Assembly: GCA_025924315.1 (NCBI GenBank)
Contig: JAICIO010000056.1
Coordinates: 1-35,787 of the forward strand
Reading direction: 5' to 3'
DNA: 35,787 bases
Source: Phycisphaerae bacterium
GTDB lineage: Bacteria; Planctomycetota; Phycisphaerae; Tepidisphaerales; Tepidisphaeraceae
The position numbers and the translations under genes are program-made. This document shows positions 6,815 to 34,128 of the stretch, piece by piece (the first letter of the stretch is position 1; every line of letters starts with the position of its first letter). The notes under the pieces were generated by a model that saw only the letters and a list, made by a program, of their open reading frames with translations, searched no databases and was not told the DNA's origin.

Positions 6815-6888
6815 GTGGGGTGCGGTTCGTCGCACTGGTTATTGATCTTCGCGCGAAGGAATAACCGGTGCGCTGAAGCGCACCCTAC
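6815..6888. repeat. REP-like hairpin doublet, copy 1 (GTGCGC stem)
   Basis: Two short hairpins face each other. The right arm (6860-6888) reads AATAACC then GGTGCGC-TGAA-GCGCACC then CTAC. The left arm (6818-6843) is a degenerate mate with stem GTGCG/CGCAC and a GTTCGT loop. The spacer carries GGTTATTGATCTTCGCGCG, resembling the spacer beside the IS200-like element at 29.9 kb. Confidence 0.75.
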
Positions 6889-8873: not shown

Positions 8874-10391
8874 TTATGGCAGGGTGATATTGGTCCCGGC
8901 GCCTCCGCTGAGCGAATCGCCGCCGCCGAGGCCGATCAGGATGTCGTTCCCGTCGCCGCCGAGCAGTGTATTCTTGCCGGCATTGCCGACGAGAACGTCG
9001 TTGCCGACTCCACCATCTTCCGTGAGCGTGATGGCGTTCGAGCTCAACGTATTCGCGGAGATGACGTCGTTGCCGTCCTGTCCGTTGATCGTCAACCGGT
9101 CGGTGGACTCGCCACCGATCACGTCCACTTGCGCGAAAAGGCCTGACACCGAAACGTTACCGAGCGAGCCGGAGACTTGAACGACGTTGTCCTTACTGCT
9201 GCCGTTCACGACGACGTTGTCGATGGCGCCATCGCCAATGCCACTGCTGGCCGGATTATCGAGCAGCAGATCGACCGCTCTCAGATCCGTTCCGGTAAGG
9301 TCGTTGACGGTGATGTTGTCGGCTCCGCCGAGCGCGGCGAACTGCACTTCTTCGACGCCGTTCAGATCCATCGTGATATTGACGAGATCGCGAGTGACCT
9401 TCGCGCGCGTTCCGTTCGCGGAAATATTCACGGTTTCGGCGAGGGGCGTGCTGTTGAACACCATCGCGTCATTGCCCCCTTCGCCTTCGACGACATCGCT
9501 TCCATCGCCGTTGTTCCAGACGAAGGTGTCGTTGCCGTCGCCCATGAACGCGATATCGGCGCCCTTCCCACCGGTGATGAGGTCGTCGCCATCGCCTCCG
9601 ATCAGCGAATCGTTGCCATCACCACCGGTGATTCTGTCGTTGCCCGCGCCGCCATCGATGCTGAGTGAAATGAGCGGCGCAAGACCTGCTCCGCCGGTGA
9701 AGGTGTCGTTGCCTGCGCCCGCGTTGAGCTGCAGGTTTTCGGTCGTGCCGATGTCGAGGAAAAATGGTGCGGGGCTCACTCGATCGAATCGAACGCGCGT
9801 CCCGTTCGCGACGGCGGTGAAGTTTTCGTCAACCGCGCCGCCGTTTACTTCGACGGTATCAATGCCGTCGCCGCCTTCGTTGATGTCGCTTCCTTCGCCG
9901 GGGTTCCAGATCAGCAGGTCGTTACCGCTTTCACCGGAGGCTGAATCGTTTCCGACTCCGCCGAGAAGCGTGTCGTTGTCGCCGCCACCGAAAAGGCTGT
10001 CGTTTCCGCCTTTGCCCAGGAGCGAATCGCTTCCGCTTTCGCCGAAGAGATGATCGTTTCCGGACCCGCCGGTAAGCGTGTCGTTTCCGTTTCCACCGAT
10101 CAAGCTGGCGGCCGGAAGCGCGCCGTTCGTCTCATCCAGGGTAATCGTGTCGTTGCCGTCCTGTCCCAGCACTTTGATCACGGTGGTGTTCGCGATGGTG
10201 GCGGGCCCTCCCGCGATCGCGACGGCTCCGCCGTTCACGAAGATCTTGCCGCCAACGTCGCGGCTCACGGTAATCGTGTTGTTCGCACTGTCGCCGAGCA
10301 CGGTCAGCACATGCGTGCTCGAACTGAAACTCGCGGAGACCGAGAAATACTTACGGGACTCCAATGACTCAAACTGGCTACGCGTATTCAT
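8874..10391 (-). CDS. RTX/hemolysin-type calcium-binding repeat protein
   Basis: The 505-residue, Gly/Asn/Asp-rich protein consists mostly of GGxGNDxL nonapeptide repeats that form calcium-binding parallel beta-rolls in secreted proteins. Clusters lie at about residues 100-170, 235-290 and at the C-terminus (GGDGNDILIGLGGGDSLSGG), separated by beta-rich spacers with TVNISANGTRAKVTRD-like segments. The N-terminus contains LESRKYFS (residues 10-17), resembling the LEPR/LESR-LLS motif seen at the start of many planctomycete extracellular proteins. No classical signal peptide or enzymatic domain is visible. I start it at the ATG at 10391; the open frame continues to 10865 but that part is antisense to the regulator gene. 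It has its own terminator and is divergent from the regulator. Confidence 0.88.
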   Translation of the reverse strand: MNTRSQFESLESRKYFSVSASFSSSTHVLTVLGDSANNTITVSRDVGGKIFVNGGAVAIAGGPATIANTTVIKVLGQDGNDTITLDETNGALPAASLIGGNGNDTLTGGSGNDHLFGESGSDSLLGKGGNDSLFGGGDNDTLLGGVGNDSASGESGNDLLIWNPGEGSDINEGGDGIDTVEVNGGAVDENFTAVANGTRVRFDRVSPAPFFLDIGTTENLQLNAGAGNDTFTGGAGLAPLISLSIDGGAGNDRITGGDGNDSLIGGDGDDLITGGKGADIAFMGDGNDTFVWNNGDGSDVVEGEGGNDAMVFNSTPLAETVNISANGTRAKVTRDLVNITMDLNGVEEVQFAALGGADNITVNDLTGTDLRAVDLLLDNPASSGIGDGAIDNVVVNGSSKDNVVQVSGSLGNVSVSGLFAQVDVIGGESTDRLTINGQDGNDVISANTLSSNAITLTEDGGVGNDVLVGNAGKNTLLGGDGNDILIGLGGGDSLSGGAGTNITLP

Positions 10392-10577
10392 GGTCTTATT
10401 GGTGTCCTTCGCACCGGTGTGGACCACTTTCACAACCTGATCCCCGCCCGACATCGAGCGGATGACCAAGCGTGACGAGGACCGGTAAGAACCCCTTGGC
10501 GGGCCGGTCATAATGCTGACGTAAATTTGCGGTAAGATGGAAATCAGCGTTTGTCGGGCTAATGGAAGTGCACACGC
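10392..10577. promoter_or_regulatory. Divergent control region of the RTX-like gene and the winged-helix regulator
   Basis: This 186-bp region separates two divergent start codons and must hold both promoters. It contains an imperfect palindrome GACCGG...CCGGTC at about 10480-10510. I cannot assign promoter hexamers with confidence. The neighbouring gene encodes a DNA-binding protein, so control from this region is plausible. Confidence 0.4.
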
Positions 10578-13160
10578 ATGGACGGGACAACCCCTACGCA
10601 ATTCGCCTTCGGCGCTTTCCAGCTGGATTCTGGAAACGCGCGTCTGTCCCGCGGCAATGAGACGATCCCCCTCACGCCGAAGGCTTTCGACGCATTGCGA
10701 TATCTCGCGGGACACCCCGATCAGCTGGTGACCAAGGATGAGCTTCTGAAAGCTGTCTGGCCGGACGTAATCGTCGGTGATGCTTCGGTAAAGGTGTGCA
10801 TCCGCGAAATTCGCAAGGCGCTGGACGACGACGCGCAACAGCCGAAGTACATCGAGACCGTGCATCGCCGCGGATATCGATTCATCGCTAAGACGGGCGC
10901 GCCACTACCGAGTCTGAAGGAGGAGAGCGCGGCGATTCTGGTGGGGCGCGATGAGGAACTGGATTGGCTGCTGGAGCGCTTCGCGAAGGCGGCGAACGGC
11001 GCGCGGCAGACGGTGTTTGTTACCGGTCGGCCCGGGTCAGGCAAGACGGCGCTCATCGATGCGCTGCAGAGCCGCGTAAAGCCAAATGCGACCAGCGCTG
11101 TGGGGCACTGTTTCGAGCAGTTTGGAACGAGCGAACCGTATCTGCCGGTTTGGGAGGCGCTCGAACAGCTGAATTCGGCGCCCGCGCGCAGTAAGCAGGA
11201 ATCTTCGATGGCGCCGGTCCTCGGATCTTCGTCGCGACTATTGCGCGACGTCACCGAGCGCGTGGAGCGTGCCGCGAACGATCGCGCGGTGTTGCTCGTG
11301 CTCGAGGATCTGCAATGGGCGGATTATTCGACGCTCGACGTGATTTCGTCGCTGGCGCGGCGGCGCACGACCGCGAGGCTGATGCTCGTCTGCACGTATC
11401 GTCACGACGAAGTGCTCGACGCAGCGCATCCGCTGCGGGTGATGACGCGCGAGCTGCTCGACCGACGGCTTGCCGAGGCGCGGCCGCTCATCGCGCTGAG
11501 CGAATCGGCGGTCGCGCAGTTTGTGGCTCAGCGCGGGGCGCAAGCGGCTCCCGCGAAGGTCATCGCGGCACTGCATCAACGCACGGGTGGGCATCCGCTG
11601 TTTCTTGTGCAGATTGTCGACGAGCTCATCGGCCAGGGGTTGCTTGCGAGTTCTGAGGTATCTGCGCAGGCGCTGGAGCGGCTCAAGACGCTGGTGCCGG
11701 CGAGCTTGATGGACATGATCGGCGCGCAGATCGAAGCGCTCGAGCCAGAGCAGCGGGAAATGCTGGAGCGCGGCGCGGTAGCCGGCGTGGAATTCTCGGC
11801 CGCGGCGATTGTTGACGCGGGCGACCGCGATGCGATTCTCGCGGCTGAGCGGGTGTGCGAAGAACTTTTACGCCGGCACCGGTTTCTCGAAGCGCGCGGG
11901 ACGGTGGAGTGGCCCAACGGCACGGTCGCCAGTGGATACCGCTTCGTGCACGAGTTGTATCACCACGTCGTGCTGGCACGGATTCCCGCCGCCCGGCGCG
12001 TGCATCTACATCAGGCGATTGGCCAGCGGTTGGAGAATGCATGGGGCGATCGCGCCGGCGAAAAGGCGGCGGAGCTGGCGGTGCATTTCGAGCAGGCCCG
12101 GGACTGGCCGCGCGCGGTGCAGCATCTGCGACGAGCGGCCGAGTCGGCATCGAAGCAGTATGCCCATCGTGAAGCGATCGATTATTTGCGTCGTGCAATC
12201 ACCGCGCTCGAGCGTCTCTCCGACGAGGAGCGTCGCGAGCACGAGCTTCCACTGCTGATGTCCCTTGCGGTGAATTTGCAGGTGACGAAGGGTTACGCGG
12301 CGCCGGAAGTCGCGGATCTGCACGAGCGCGCGTACGCCTTGAGCCATGCGTCCGGCGTGCGACGCGACATTCGCGTGCTCTATCCCGTGCTGTGGGGCAT
12401 GTGGGTGTATCACAAGGTGCGATCCGATTTGCCGCTGGCGCAGGAAATCGCGAACGAACTGCTCTCGCTCGCGGATCAGGAGAATGACGATGGGCTGCGC
12501 CTCCAGGCGATGCAGGCACTGGCGGTGACGGCGCTGTGCCAGGGCAGGTTCGCGGAAACGATCGCACAAGCCGAACGGGCGAGGAAACTCTACGATGCGA
12601 AAAAACACGGCTCAAACGTGCGCGCGTTTGGCCAGGATCCTGGCGTCGCGACCCTTGCATTCGGCGCTCTTGCATTGTGTTTGACCGGAGAAGCCGATCG
12701 AGCGATCGAGATGAGCGGCGAAGCAATCGGCCTGGCGCGGGAGTTGCATCAACCGTCGTCGCTCGCACTCGCCTTGCAGTTCGCTGCGATGATGCATCAA
12801 TGCCGCGGCGATGCGCGCGAGGCGGAAACGGCGGCGGGCGAGGCCATGGAGCTTTCGACGAACGAAGGCTATTCGTTCTGGCGCGCCGGCAGCATGATCG
12901 TTTGCGGATGGGCGCGGGCAGCGCAATCTCGCGACGAGTCGGCGGTGCGAGAGATTCGTGACGGACTCAAAGCGTGGCTCGCGACAGGCAGCCGCACGTA
13001 TCACGAGTATTTCCTCGGCTTGCTTGCCGATGCGTTATTGCATCTCGGTCGTGAAGACGAAGCGAAGCGCGTCGTCGATGAAGCGCTTATAGCTGTTGAG
13101 GAAACGGGCGAGCGGCTCTTCGAACCGCAGTTGCGGGAACTTGAAAACAGGCTGAGATAG
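10578..13160 (+). CDS. Winged-helix / AAA ATPase / TPR transcriptional regulator
   Basis: The 860-residue protein joins three modules. Residues 8-104 are an OmpR/CadC-type winged helix, ending with the typical YIETVHRRGYRFIA. Residues about 120-480 are an AAA_16 ATPase with Walker A GRPGSGKT (150-157) and Walker B LLVLEDLQWAD (239-249). The remaining C-terminal half is alpha-helical TPR-like repeats (for example LAVHFEQARDWPRAVQHLRR). There is no receiver domain, so an unknown ligand or protein sensed by the TPR part presumably drives ATP-dependent activation. The ATG at 10578 follows GGAAG by about ten bases. It is transcribed divergently from the RTX-like gene, a possible target. Confidence 0.88.
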   Translation: MDGTTPTQFAFGAFQLDSGNARLSRGNETIPLTPKAFDALRYLAGHPDQLVTKDELLKAVWPDVIVGDASVKVCIREIRKALDDDAQQPKYIETVHRRGYRFIAKTGAPLPSLKEESAAILVGRDEELDWLLERFAKAANGARQTVFVTGRPGSGKTALIDALQSRVKPNATSAVGHCFEQFGTSEPYLPVWEALEQLNSAPARSKQESSMAPVLGSSSRLLRDVTERVERAANDRAVLLVLEDLQWADYSTLDVISSLARRRTTARLMLVCTYRHDEVLDAAHPLRVMTRELLDRRLAEARPLIALSESAVAQFVAQRGAQAAPAKVIAALHQRTGGHPLFLVQIVDELIGQGLLASSEVSAQALERLKTLVPASLMDMIGAQIEALEPEQREMLERGAVAGVEFSAAAIVDAGDRDAILAAERVCEELLRRHRFLEARGTVEWPNGTVASGYRFVHELYHHVVLARIPAARRVHLHQAIGQRLENAWGDRAGEKAAELAVHFEQARDWPRAVQHLRRAAESASKQYAHREAIDYLRRAITALERLSDEERREHELPLLMSLAVNLQVTKGYAAPEVADLHERAYALSHASGVRRDIRVLYPVLWGMWVYHKVRSDLPLAQEIANELLSLADQENDDGLRLQAMQALAVTALCQGRFAETIAQAERARKLYDAKKHGSNVRAFGQDPGVATLAFGALALCLTGEADRAIEMSGEAIGLARELHQPSSLALALQFAAMMHQCRGDAREAETAAGEAMELSTNEGYSFWRAGSMIVCGWARAAQSRDESAVREIRDGLKAWLATGSRTYHEYFLGLLADALLHLGREDEAKRVVDEALIAVEETGERLFEPQLRELENRLR

Positions 13161-20418: not shown

Positions 20419-20886
20419 ATGCAAATTGTCAGCGCCCAGGAAAAAGCCGAGCTCGAAAAAAAGCGCGAAGAGCTTTACAAGCTGCAGATCGATGTTCAGG
20501 AACGCATCCGCAAGGCCGCGGCGCTTGGCGATCTTTCCGAAAATGCGGAATACCACTTCGCCAAGGAAGAAAACCGTCATGTGCAACGCCAGCTCGCGGA
20601 GCTCGAGGCGAAGCTGAAGAGCGTATCGGTCGTCGATACTGAGAATGTCCCCGAAGACGTTGTGTTCCTCGGCCACACGGTGAAGCTCCAAGACCTCGAC
20701 GATGACAGCGAACAACTCGTCCGCCTCGTTGGTGAAGCTCAAACGCCCGATCCCAACAGCGAGGTCCTGCCGGTCTCGGTCAACAGCCCCATGGGCGAAG
20801 CGCTCATGAAGGCAAGAGTCGGCGACACGGTCAAAGTAAAAGCCCCGCGGGGGACGATGGAATTCAAGATCCTTGCAATTGTGTGA
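20419..20886 (+). CDS. greA: Transcription elongation factor GreA
   Basis: The 155-residue protein binds the RNA polymerase secondary channel and stimulates cleavage of backtracked RNA. The N-terminal coiled coil (about 5-75) carries the tip motif LGDLSENAEYHFAKEE with the acidic D and E residues that reach the catalytic magnesium. The C-terminal FKBP-like domain has the usual NSPMGEALMKARVGDTVKVK and a final MEFKILAI strand. Length is typical. GAGGAG lies shortly before the ATG. A terminator-like hairpin sits in its leader. Confidence 0.96.
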   Translation: MQIVSAQEKAELEKKREELYKLQIDVQERIRKAAALGDLSENAEYHFAKEENRHVQRQLAELEAKLKSVSVVDTENVPEDVVFLGHTVKLQDLDDDSEQLVRLVGEAQTPDPNSEVLPVSVNSPMGEALMKARVGDTVKVKAPRGTMEFKILAIV

Positions 20887-21030
20887 GTTGTTTAGCGGCG
20901 CCCCGCAGGGGCGACATCCGCCACGAAATGCGTAGGGTCCGCTTCAGCGGACCGGTTACTCCTCTGCTCGAAAGGCAAATAACCGGTCCGCTGAAGCGGA
21001 CCCTACTTTTGCATCCTGGACCGAATTGAA
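20887..21030. other. Gap between greA and tRNA-Thr, with hairpins
   Basis: Downstream of greA there is a small hairpin CGCCCC-GCA-GGGGCG (20899-20913) without a T-tract, then the REP-like doublet at 20932-21006. I see no gene in the gap. Confidence 0.6.
20932..21006. repeat. REP-like hairpin doublet, copy 2 (GTCCGC stem), intact
   Basis: A perfect 27-bp inverted repeat (20932-20958 and 20980-21006) separated by 21 bases. Each arm is itself a hairpin, GGTCCGC-TTCA-GCGGACC, bordered by GTAG outside and GGTTA inside. This is the most complete copy in the window and serves as the reference for the family. Confidence 0.9.
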
Positions 21031-21103
21031 AGCCGCTCGTCGGAATCGAACCGACAACCTACGCTTTACAAAAGCGTTGCTCTGCCAATTGAGCTAGAGC
21101 GGC
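21031..21103 (-). tRNA. tRNA-Thr (anticodon TGT)
   Basis: The minus strand folds into a full cloverleaf: acceptor stem GCCGCTC/GAGCGGC, D stem GCTC/GAGC, anticodon stem ACGCT/AGCGT around loop TTTGTAA (anticodon TGT, reading ACA), variable loop AGGTT, and T stem GTCGG/CCGAC around TTCGATT. The discriminator base is T. The 3' CCA is not encoded and must be added enzymatically. The gene lies 25 bp from the REP-like doublet. Confidence 0.96.
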
Positions 21104-23328: not shown

Positions 23329-24381
23329 ATGACCGCCGTTCACCTCGATCACATCACGAAGCGATTCGACGAAACCGTCGCTCTTGACGACATCGATCTG
23401 CGCATCAATGCCGGCGAGCTGTTCTTCCTCTTGGGCCCGAGCGGCTGTGGAAAGAGCACGCTTCTGCGCCTGATCGCGGGCCTGCACGAGCCGACGAGCG
23501 GGCGGATCCTGTTCAATGATCGCGACGTCACGAACCTTCACACGGATCAGCGCAATGCAGTAATGGTATTTCAGAGCTACGCGCTTTGGCCGCACATGAC
23601 GGTGCGGGAGAATGTGCGGTTCGGATTGTCGGTACGAAAGGTCGATCGGGCCGAGCAGGAGCGGCGAATCGATGATGTGCTTCAGCTCGTCGAGATGACG
23701 CCATACGCCTCGCGAAAGCCGAATCAACTTTCCGGTGGACAGCAGCAGCGCGTCGCGCTCGCTCGTGCGCTCGCGGTTCGACCCGATTGCTTACTCCTGG
23801 ATGAGCCGCTGTCGAATCTCGACGCGAAGTTGCGTCACGAGATGCGCAGTGAGATCCGTCGGATCTGCAAGACGGCCGGCTTCACGACGATTTACGTCAC
23901 GCACGATCAGAAGGAAGCGCTGAGCGTCGCCGATCGAATCGCGGTGCTGAAGGCGGGACGGCTCGCGCAGGTCGGCACACCCAGTGAGCTGTATCACCGC
24001 CCGAGAAGCGCGTTCGTCGCGGATTTCATTGGACAGACCAATCTCCTCGCGGGCAAAATCGTCGGTCGCGCCGGTTCGAGCGTCGAGATCGAAACCGCCG
24101 CGGGGAAATTCCGCGCCGCCCACGCGGAGTTGAACGGCGATAACGTGACGATCAGCATTCGTCCCGAGCAGATGCAGATCGTGCGCGGAAGTGGAAACGC
24201 GAACCGAAACCGCATCGTCGGCCGGCCCATCGAAACAACTTTCCTCGGCGAAGCGAGCGAGCACGTGCTGCTTGTCGGCGAGGAAAAGCTAAAGGTGATC
24301 AGCGCGCCGCCGGTGTTCGACGTGCCGCAGCAGATGACGGTGGAATTCGATCCGGAAGATGTGGTGGTGCTCGGGAGCTGA
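23329..24381 (+). CDS. ABC transporter ATPase with TOBE domain (iron/polyamine/sugar type)
   Basis: The 350-residue protein is a CUT/FbpC/PotA-type importer ATPase. Walker A is GPSGCGKST (36-44), the Q-loop is VFQSYALWPHMTV, the signature LSGGQ is at 134-138, Walker B is CLLLDEPLSNLD, and the H-loop is TIYVTHDQKEAL. Residues about 245-350 form the TOBE regulatory domain. The ATG at 23329 comes two bases after the TPR-protein stop. A matching type of solute-binding protein is encoded 2.4 kb downstream, but no permease gene is in the window. Substrate is not determinable from the ATPase alone; iron(III) or polyamine is plausible from the binding protein. Confidence 0.9.
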   Translation: MTAVHLDHITKRFDETVALDDIDLRINAGELFFLLGPSGCGKSTLLRLIAGLHEPTSGRILFNDRDVTNLHTDQRNAVMVFQSYALWPHMTVRENVRFGLSVRKVDRAEQERRIDDVLQLVEMTPYASRKPNQLSGGQQQRVALARALAVRPDCLLLDEPLSNLDAKLRHEMRSEIRRICKTAGFTTIYVTHDQKEALSVADRIAVLKAGRLAQVGTPSELYHRPRSAFVADFIGQTNLLAGKIVGRAGSSVEIETAAGKFRAAHAELNGDNVTISIRPEQMQIVRGSGNANRNRIVGRPIETTFLGEASEHVLLVGEEKLKVISAPPVFDVPQQMTVEFDPEDVVVLGS

Positions 24382-24385
24382 TGTC

Positions 24386-24446
24386 GTAGCGTGTGCTTCA
24401 GCACACCATCTCATCGAAAAGAACGGTGTGCCGAAGCACACCCTAC
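24386..24446. repeat. REP-like hairpin doublet, copy 3 (GTGTGC stem)
   Basis: The left arm (24386-24407) is GTAGC then GTGTGC-TTCA-GCACAC, and the right arm (24425-24446) is GGTGTGC-CGAA-GCACACC then CTAC. Compared with the other copies, both sides of the stem have changed together, so base pairing is preserved. It lies between the ABC ATPase and mmsA. Confidence 0.8.
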
Positions 24447-26753: not shown

Positions 26754-26816
26754 TGTGGCACAGCCGCCCTCGGCTGTGCTCGCGCACCGCACACAGCCGA
26801 GGGCGGCTGTGCCACA
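26754..26816. repeat. Perfect 25-bp palindrome upstream of the solute-binding protein
   Basis: The two 25-bp arms (26754-26778 and 26792-26816), built around GGCACAGCCGCCCTCGGCTG, are perfect inverted copies with a 13-base loop. The element ends 12 bases before the start codon of the next gene and begins just after the amidase stop, filling nearly the whole gap. No T-tract follows. Confidence 0.85.
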
Positions 26817-29170: not shown

Positions 29171-29186
29171 TCGCGCCATTGCGTTC

Positions 29187-29214
29187 TAGGGTCCGCTTCA
29201 GCGGACCGGTTATT
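29187..29214. repeat. REP-like arm, copy 4 left half
   Basis: TAG then GGTCCGC-TTCA-GCGGACC then GGTTATT, identical in stem to copy 2. Its mate lies 685 bp away at 29900-29928, on the other side of the IS200-like element. Confidence 0.85.
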
Positions 29215-29295
29215 CACTCATAAAACCACGGCCTCTGGCCGTGCGACGCTGGAAGGCTCCGCCGTTCCAGCGTGCCGAGCGTGCGAAAAGAAATA

Positions 29296-29338
29296 GGCTC
29301 TCCTTCGGAAGGCTCCGTTGGGACAAAGAAGGAGAGCC
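29296..29338 (+). promoter_or_regulatory. Stem that masks the tnpA ribosome-binding site
   Basis: GGCTCTCCTTC (29296-29306) is perfectly complementary to GAAGGAGAGCC (29328-29338), with a 21-base loop. The right arm contains the GGAG ribosome-binding site just before the ATG at 29341, so the folded mRNA would hide it. Similar leader structures restrict IS200 transposase translation in enterobacteria. Confidence 0.75.
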
Positions 29339-29340
29339 AT

Positions 29341-29766
29341 ATGCATGAATGGCAAAGCTTGTCCCACGTGAAGTGGGAATGCAAATACCACATTGTGATT
29401 GTACCGAAGTACCGGCGTAAGCGTCTGTATGGGCGCTTGCGGAACCAGATCGGGTCGATCCTGAAGGATCTGTGCAAGCAGAAAGGGATCGAGTTGATCG
29501 AAGGGCACTGCCGACCGGATCACGTGCACATGTGCTTGGCGATTGCGCCGAAGTACAGCGTGTCGTACACGATCGGTTTTTTAAAAGGAAAGAGCGCGAT
29601 TCGAATCCATCGGCTGCACGACCGGGAGCGTGCAGCGCATGGGAAGCACTTTTGGGCGGTGGGTTACTGGGTGAGCACGGTCGGCTTTGATGAAGCGACG
29701 GTGCGGCAGTACATCCGCGACCAGGAGAAGCTTGAGACGAGTCAAGGGACGTTGAACTTCGAATAA
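29341..29766 (+). CDS. tnpA: IS200/IS605-type Y1 transposase TnpA
   Basis: The 141-residue protein is a single-strand HUH transposase. The HUH motif is H61-V-H63 in CRPDHVHMCLAIAPK, and the catalytic tyrosine is Y124 in ATVRQYIRDQEK. The start of the fold, HVKWECKYHIVIVPKYRRK, and the mid-protein GKHFWAVGYWVSTVG are canonical. Length is typical for an intact enzyme. The ATG at 29341 follows GGAGAG; the open frame extends to 29272 without a family match. No accessory TnpB gene is nearby, so this is an IS200-like single-gene element. Confidence 0.96.
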   Translation: MHEWQSLSHVKWECKYHIVIVPKYRRKRLYGRLRNQIGSILKDLCKQKGIELIEGHCRPDHVHMCLAIAPKYSVSYTIGFLKGKSAIRIHRLHDRERAAHGKHFWAVGYWVSTVGFDEATVRQYIRDQEKLETSQGTLNFE

Positions 29767-29774
29767 GTTTCACC

Positions 29775-29845
29775 GGCCCCAGCGGGGCCTTCCGACTTTG
29801 CCCCTTCAAGGGGCAACCTCTCCCGCACGGCCCCCTCCGGGGGCC
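29775..29845. repeat. Three tandem GC hairpins after tnpA
   Basis: Three compact hairpins follow the transposase stop: GGCCCC-AGC-GGGGCC (29775-29789), TGCCCC-TTCAA-GGGGCA (29799-29815) and GGCCCCC-TCC-GGGGGCC (29829-29845). They precede the right-end hairpin of the IS. No T-tract follows. Confidence 0.8.
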
Positions 29846-29899
29846 TTCCTCATACCACGTCCTACGGGCGTGGTTGTTGATTTGCCTTTCGCGCGGAGG

Positions 29900-31767: not shown

Positions 31768-31805
31768 CTGTTGAGCCGACAAGAGATACACGGATATACT
31801 CGACC
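31768..31805 (+). promoter_or_regulatory. Promoter-like repeat, copy A
   Basis: TTGAGC (31771-31776) and TATACT (31795-31800), 18 bases apart, form a plausible sigma-70-type promoter. The whole 38-bp block, including the spacer (CGACAAGAGATACACGGA), recurs at 32.93 and 34.09 kb. It is 50 bases upstream of the ORF at 31850. The rest of the 195-bp gap before it (from xylA) shows nothing else I can name. Confidence 0.6.
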
Positions 31806-32930: not shown

Positions 32931-32968
32931 TGTTTGAGCCCACGAGAGATGCGCGGATATACTCGGCT
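32931..32968 (+). promoter_or_regulatory. Promoter-like repeat, copy B
   Basis: TTGAGC (32934-32939) and TATACT (32958-32963), again 18 bases apart, with spacer CCACGAGAGATGCGCGGA. It lies only 16 bases upstream of the next ATG, so the transcript would be nearly leaderless. Confidence 0.6.
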
Positions 32969-34025: not shown

Positions 34026-34086
34026 GTAGCGTGGGGTTCACCCACCGATTTCTGTCGGGTAATTGGTGGGGTGGACCCCACCCTAC
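34026..34086. repeat. REP-like hairpin doublet, copy 5 (GTGGG stem)
   Basis: The left arm is GTAGC then GTGGG-GTTCA-CCCAC, and the right arm is GTGGGG-TGGA-CCCCAC followed by CCTAC. The outer GTAG/CTAC borders match the family. The stem sequence differs from the other copies but pairs. It lies between the 72-aa gene and promoter-like repeat C. Confidence 0.65.
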
Positions 34087-34090
34087 GTGG

Positions 34091-34128
34091 CTGTTGAGCC
34101 GGCAAGGGATGCGCGGATATACTCGACC
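34091..34128 (+). promoter_or_regulatory. Promoter-like repeat, copy C
   Basis: TTGAGC (34094-34099) and TATACT (34118-34123), 18 bases apart. The block matches copy A at 34 of 38 positions, with all differences being A/G changes. It lies 46 bases upstream of the ORF at 34169. Confidence 0.6.

Follow-up and report, generated by a model that had tools for sequence, protein, structure and literature searches.

What kind of element occupies positions 20932-21006, between greA (20419-20886) and a tRNA gene (21031-21103, - strand), and what maintains its folded form? The locus lies in a window of 35,787 nucleotides, meaning the whole stretch of DNA that was analysed, from a Phycisphaerae bacterium. 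It consists of a perfect 27-bp inverted repeat around a spacer of 21 nt, in which the arm GTAGGGTCCGCTTCAGCGGACCGGTTA is followed by its reverse complement. Each of the two 29-nt arms, which stand head-to-head around a variable spacer, forms its own hairpin (GGTCCGC-TTCA-GCGGACC) with GTAG directly 5' of the short palindrome, as in GTAG-tagged REPs. The arms also pair with each other to give one long hairpin, for which a fold of -36.2 kcal/mol was calculated as single-stranded DNA (z = -11.4 versus shuffles). Inverted REP doublets with roughly constant spacing and the capacity to fold into one hairpin are known as REPINs, a kind of tiny mobile DNA, and the doublets described here are a new and well-anchored example of them. 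A search against Rfam gave no matching family besides a tRNA.

Four copies of the GTAG-tagged palindrome doublet were found in the window. In addition to the complete REPIN of the GTCCGC class at 20932-21006, a REPIN of the GTGCGC class is located at 6815-6888, with a perfect right arm and a left arm decayed to GTGG..GTGCGG. The copy at 24386-24446 belongs to the GTGTGC class; its spacer is short and the GGTTATT tail is missing. An ABC-transporter gene, whose stop is at 24381, lies on one side of this copy and a gene for an aldehyde dehydrogenase on the other. The fourth copy, again of the GTCCGC class, is interrupted: its left arm and tail are found at 29186-29214 (+ strand), the rest of the spacer and the right arm at 29880/29883-29928 (- strand). 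The first-pass annotation had described five loci of one family with a common outer GTAG border. Four doublets stand, the arms at 29.2 and 29.9 kb being halves of one split doublet, and the border holds for most copies but reads GTGG at 6815 and CTAG at 29186. The fifth locus, a GTAG-bordered doublet with a GTGGGG stem at 34026-34086, was set apart from the GTAG-tagged REPIN population because no second copy was present in a 1.9-Mb sample of the genome; it is a singleton of another type and no stem variant of the population. The window also contains three direct copies of a 38-nt sequence (31768-31805, 32931-32968 and 34091-34128), about 1160 bp apart around PEMT and DUF6193 genes, and a long ORF (8874-10865, - strand) with repeats at multiples of 27 nt, as from putative 9-residue RTX-type repeats.

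The split copy raised the possibility that the family is mobilised from within the window, as a TnpA gene (29341-29766) sits between its two perfectly complementary GTCCGC arms. This gene is part of an insertion of the IS200/IS605 type at 29215-29882 (+ strand, with a 3-nt ambiguity at the right end), which had been missed in the first-pass annotation. Hairpins are located near both ends of the insertion (29227-29243 and 29854-29874), and the TnpA product scored 136 bits on the IS200 model (cut-off 55), which together identify an IS200/IS605 TnpA. On the RAYT model the same product reached only 23.5 bits (cut-off 80), and its nearest solved structures were IS200/IS608-type transposases. The element is single-copy and, when 29215-29882 is left out, an ordinary 75-bp REPIN of the usual length remains; the arms at 29.2 and 29.9 kb were thus assigned to a single REPIN whose spacer carries the insertion. 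The IS200 score, the terminal hairpins and the residual doublet rule out the window gene as a RAYT, and it is extremely improbable that its product mobilises the family. Insertion of IS elements in REP units has been reported previously (Tobes and Pareja, 2006, PMC1525189; ISPpu9, PMC8450116). The present case is similar, with an IS200-type element in the spacer of a REPIN, in one copy only.

The distribution of the element was investigated in the complete source genome (6.57 Mb), and further statistics were obtained from samples of 1.14 or 1.9 Mb. Gene calls were made with a simple dicodon script; they are approximate and some starts are misplaced. Allowing up to three mismatches, TAGGGTCCGCTTCAGCGGACC matched 820 arms while the reversed pattern matched one, which excludes a chance origin and confirms the existence of further copies. 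The number of REPINs genome-wide was estimated at about 350-400. Only 13% of the doublets lie mostly inside predicted genes, against 86% of random placements, in agreement with the intergenic location noted earlier; this extragenic location and the high copy number are again those of GTAG-tagged REPs. The arrangement as facing pairs was also borne out, since all 83 doublets in the first 1.14 Mb are head-to-head. These comprise 34 doublets of the GTGCGC class, 33 of the GTCCGC class, eight of the GTGTGC class and eight mixed or mutated ones, neighbouring classes being one base pair apart. Doublet length is 69-83 bp (about 75) in the two main classes and 53-63 bp (about 60) in the GTGTGC class, from which the GGTTATT tail is missing.

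When only GTAG and TTCA were fixed and the stem was left free, 113 head-to-head doublets were obtained in 1.9 Mb, and in 104 of them both arms had at least six of the seven stem pairs (0/26 in the reversed-sequence control). Information per position is high up to nucleotide 29 and almost nil from nucleotide 31. The inner spacer shows 33% identity among doublets of equal length, versus about 91% for the arms across the two main classes. Self-complementarity of the spacer (0.272) was within the range of shuffles (mean 0.250, maximum 0.311), thus the spacer contains no conserved third hairpin.

A candidate mobiliser was identified outside the window, on contig C88 of the same genome. With the NCBIfam RAYT model NF047646 (cut-off of 80 bits), the highest scores in the source genome were those of C31 (175.3 bits), C88 (171.8 bits) and C20 (80.4 bits, just above the cut-off). 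The C88 RAYT carries the HLH and Y-x-x-Y-N-P motifs of the HUH/Y1 REP_Tyr_transpos family and matched TnpArep (PDB 4er8) with an E-value of 1e-28. Its gene, on the - strand, is located between complete GTGCGC REPINs starting at C88:21822 and C88:22499, so that for this class a RAYT gene is flanked by the same REPs, as is typical of REPIN systems. The initial proposal of REP doublets mobilised by RAYT-type Y1 transposases is well matched by these two components, the mobilisation itself being suggested by analogy. The C88 RAYT is probably the cognate transposase and probably spreads the REPINs. No RAYT gene flanked by REPINs of the GTCCGC or GTGTGC class was found in the source genome. It was assumed that the C88 RAYT also serves the GTCCGC class, given the difference of one base pair and the shared tail; the GTGTGC class, without the GGTTATT tail, may have another mobiliser. 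GTAG hairpins whose stems are paired but of another sequence also border most of the best RAYTs in related genomes.

Other transposase genes were considered. The C31 RAYT was rejected as cognate, as it adjoins a small and different GTAG palindrome family (GTAGGTCCGGC, 7 arms in the sample), and the Y1 genes first found by PF01797 were also rejected, several of them bearing other hairpin families. A second doublet family (TGTGGCACAGCCGCCCTCGGCTGTG and its inverse) is present in the window at 26754-26816, with 17 core copies in 1.14 Mb, and a hairpin of this family also adjoins the RAYT-like gene at C20:5060-5449 (80.4 bits). Moreover, palindromes tagged with TTTAGC form several stem families in the genome (20890-20913; L034, L036, L329, L328, L332, L336). 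They flank, in inverted orientation, Y1 transposases mostly displaying an LPND/LPNE..RGSWS motif, on both sides of the transposase in C5, C130 and G024 and on one side in three other genomes. For one such family 51 copies were counted in the source genome, whereas a search of 293 other genomes of the phylum gave none. No description of the TTTAGC tag was found in the REP literature compared, and these palindromes flanking another transposase clade may be newer.

The stem variants had been regarded as possible subfamilies, and their pair-preserving changes as a sign of selection on the fold. When two stem positions were allowed to vary, 149 arms were collected from other taxa; 131 of them have Watson-Crick pairs at these positions, representing six states. 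In 43 distinct arms 92% of the cells are paired, with a covariation score of 0.299, the corresponding values for shuffles being 80% and 0.096; neither of the observed values was reached in any of 500 shuffles, a control in which relatedness is retained. Within the three classes the picture is different. In a set of 217 arms, stem changes were one-sided in 39 cases, 12 of which give a wobble pair, and compensated in 3. Stem covariation hence lies between lineages, i.e. subfamilies and REPs of other taxa, and is nearly absent among the copies of one lineage: paired changes belong to lineages, while resident copies decay largely without compensation. Selection on the fold is supported for the replicating lineage, but is not visible on each resident copy. 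The subfamily status could be retained for the GTCCGC, GTGCGC and GTGTGC classes, the GTGGGG stem at 34.0 kb being outside the population. It has been considered that the classes are separate repeat families without shared ancestry, whose paired differences would be uninformative on fold selection. The class is indeed common to both arms in 100 of 109 doublets, and the GTGTGC class differs in tail and spacer length. However, GTAG, loop, tail and spacer length are common to the GTCCGC and GTGCGC classes, which also resemble each other in the spacer core and are one base pair apart in both arms, and the pairing of the arms from other taxa at the free stem positions is equally at odds with unrelated families. 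This explanation is consequently given little probability.

The genomic context was analysed with respect to a possible role for the host. The median distance from a doublet to a gene end is 7 bp, and of 119 gene ends close to doublets, 29 coincide with the TAG in GTAG. The genes flanking 91 doublets are convergent in 42 cases, tandem in 43 and divergent in 6, whereas 21%, 53% and 25%, respectively, are expected by intergenic length. The REPINs are spaced at random along the contigs (sd/mean 1.04), evidence against a regular mark that organises the chromosome. Their strong preference for the 3' side of genes and for convergent gaps, together with the very stable fold, would be compatible with doublets kept for a host function (transcription termination, protection of mRNA 3' ends or a protein-binding site), each locus being selected for its fold. 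Purging of insertions upstream of genes would nevertheless lead to the same 3' bias. Stem and unpaired loop diverge from the class consensus to a similar extent (1.5-1.7% and 2.2% per site, respectively), and the excess of one-sided stem changes is equally unfavourable to selection at each locus. For GTAG the value is 0.8%, in a set of 217 arms that had been selected for at most one mismatch in GTAG and TTCA. The occurrence of the element in relatives is also informative. The stem-free pattern GTAGGGTNNGCTTCAGCNNACC gave 684 exact matches in the source genome and one in 293 other genomes of the phylum. A slightly looser pattern gave 21 matches in G005 (all GTGGGC), 17 in G015 and 10 in G016 (mostly GTGTGC), single matches in three further genomes of the family and none in 19 of its 25 other genomes, and the element is thus not generally needed. 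A host function of this kind appears improbable, although arm conservation may be due to host function or gene conversion, which was counted against the main explanation.

The preferred explanation, held with high confidence, is that the element is a non-autonomous REPIN and that the HUH/Y1 RAYT (TnpA-REP) encoded on contig C88 most likely copies it in single-stranded form. The unit would be made of two inverted REP hairpins (GTAG, GGTNNGC-TTCA-GCNNACC and the GGTTATT tail) with a short variable spacer between them. The C88 RAYT would recognise GTAG plus hairpin, cleave there and copy the doublet as single-stranded DNA, by analogy with TnpA-REP of relatives, which binds single-stranded REP in a GTAG-dependent manner and cleaves at CT beside the hairpin (PMC8266576). 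In the source genome about 88% of the arms are bordered on the outside by a pyrimidine, and about 60% have T as the next base. Copying would be restricted to copies with intact arms, so that the replicating lineage would retain GTAG, loop and stem pairing, with drift in the spacer. Stem subfamilies would arise from a base-pair change on both sides within a lineage, and surviving insertions would be found mainly just downstream of genes.

Some descent is still visible in the spacers. A neighbour at a similarity of at least 0.85 was found for 22.8% of them, versus 0.4% in a position-wise null, and the pairs with the closest spacers have unrelated flanks, which fits a doublet that moves together with its spacer. 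As the arms differ from the consensus by 1-2% per site while the spacers are nearly saturated, we infer that the lineages long predate the resident copies and that a population of several hundred persists by turnover, with no single recent burst. In 24 closest-spacer pairs the stem class was the same in 50%, against a permutation mean of 49.5%. Since REPINs with similar spacers share their class at chance level, yet the arms within a doublet nearly always agree, arms could be exchanged or corrected between copies and the stem class not be inherited with the spacer. This reading is rather unlikely, its weak point being that spacers of 15 nt carry little information on descent. If true, arm exchange would represent RAYT-driven or recombination-driven concerted evolution around a free spacer.

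In the GI-type REPINs of Pseudomonas fluorescens SBW25, which are about 71 bp long, REP doublets were argued to be the replicating unit (Bertels and Rainey, 2011, PMC3116915). The present elements resemble them in the unit of two inverted REPs, the spacer less conserved than the arms, the intergenic location and the tie to a RAYT; they differ in the REP sequence, in nearly all arms being in single doublets without larger clusters and in a near-random spacer. The REP of Haemophilus influenzae GTAGGGTGGGCTTcAGCCCACC, with RAYT NP_438385 and about 20 copies per variant (Nunvar et al., 2010, PMC2817692), has the same GTAG, GGT...ACC frame and TTCA loop, and only the two free stem pairs differ. Here, in contrast, several hundred doublets occur in another taxon and with other stem classes. 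A scan of one genome per species gave at least 112 stretches, among the matches listed mostly from Pseudomonas and relatives, also from Haemophilus influenzae and Neisseria. As far as described in the text of Di Nocera et al. (2013, PMC3733652), GTAG-tagged palindromic repeats are known in Planctomycetes, are located 3' of genes and supply stop codons through TAG. The features given there (GTAG tag, head-to-head dimers, stem subfamilies with complementary changes, 3' location and TAG stops) are shared by the present family; the sequences given in the running text of that paper include neither the population of the source genome nor its RAYT.

The source genome thus offers a large and clean REPIN population with its RAYT outside the Proteobacteria, where most such work was done. 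Stem classes one base pair apart constitute a minimal pair for stem recognition by the RAYT, and the conservation of the arms around near-random spacers provides a simple argument for long persistence of the population.
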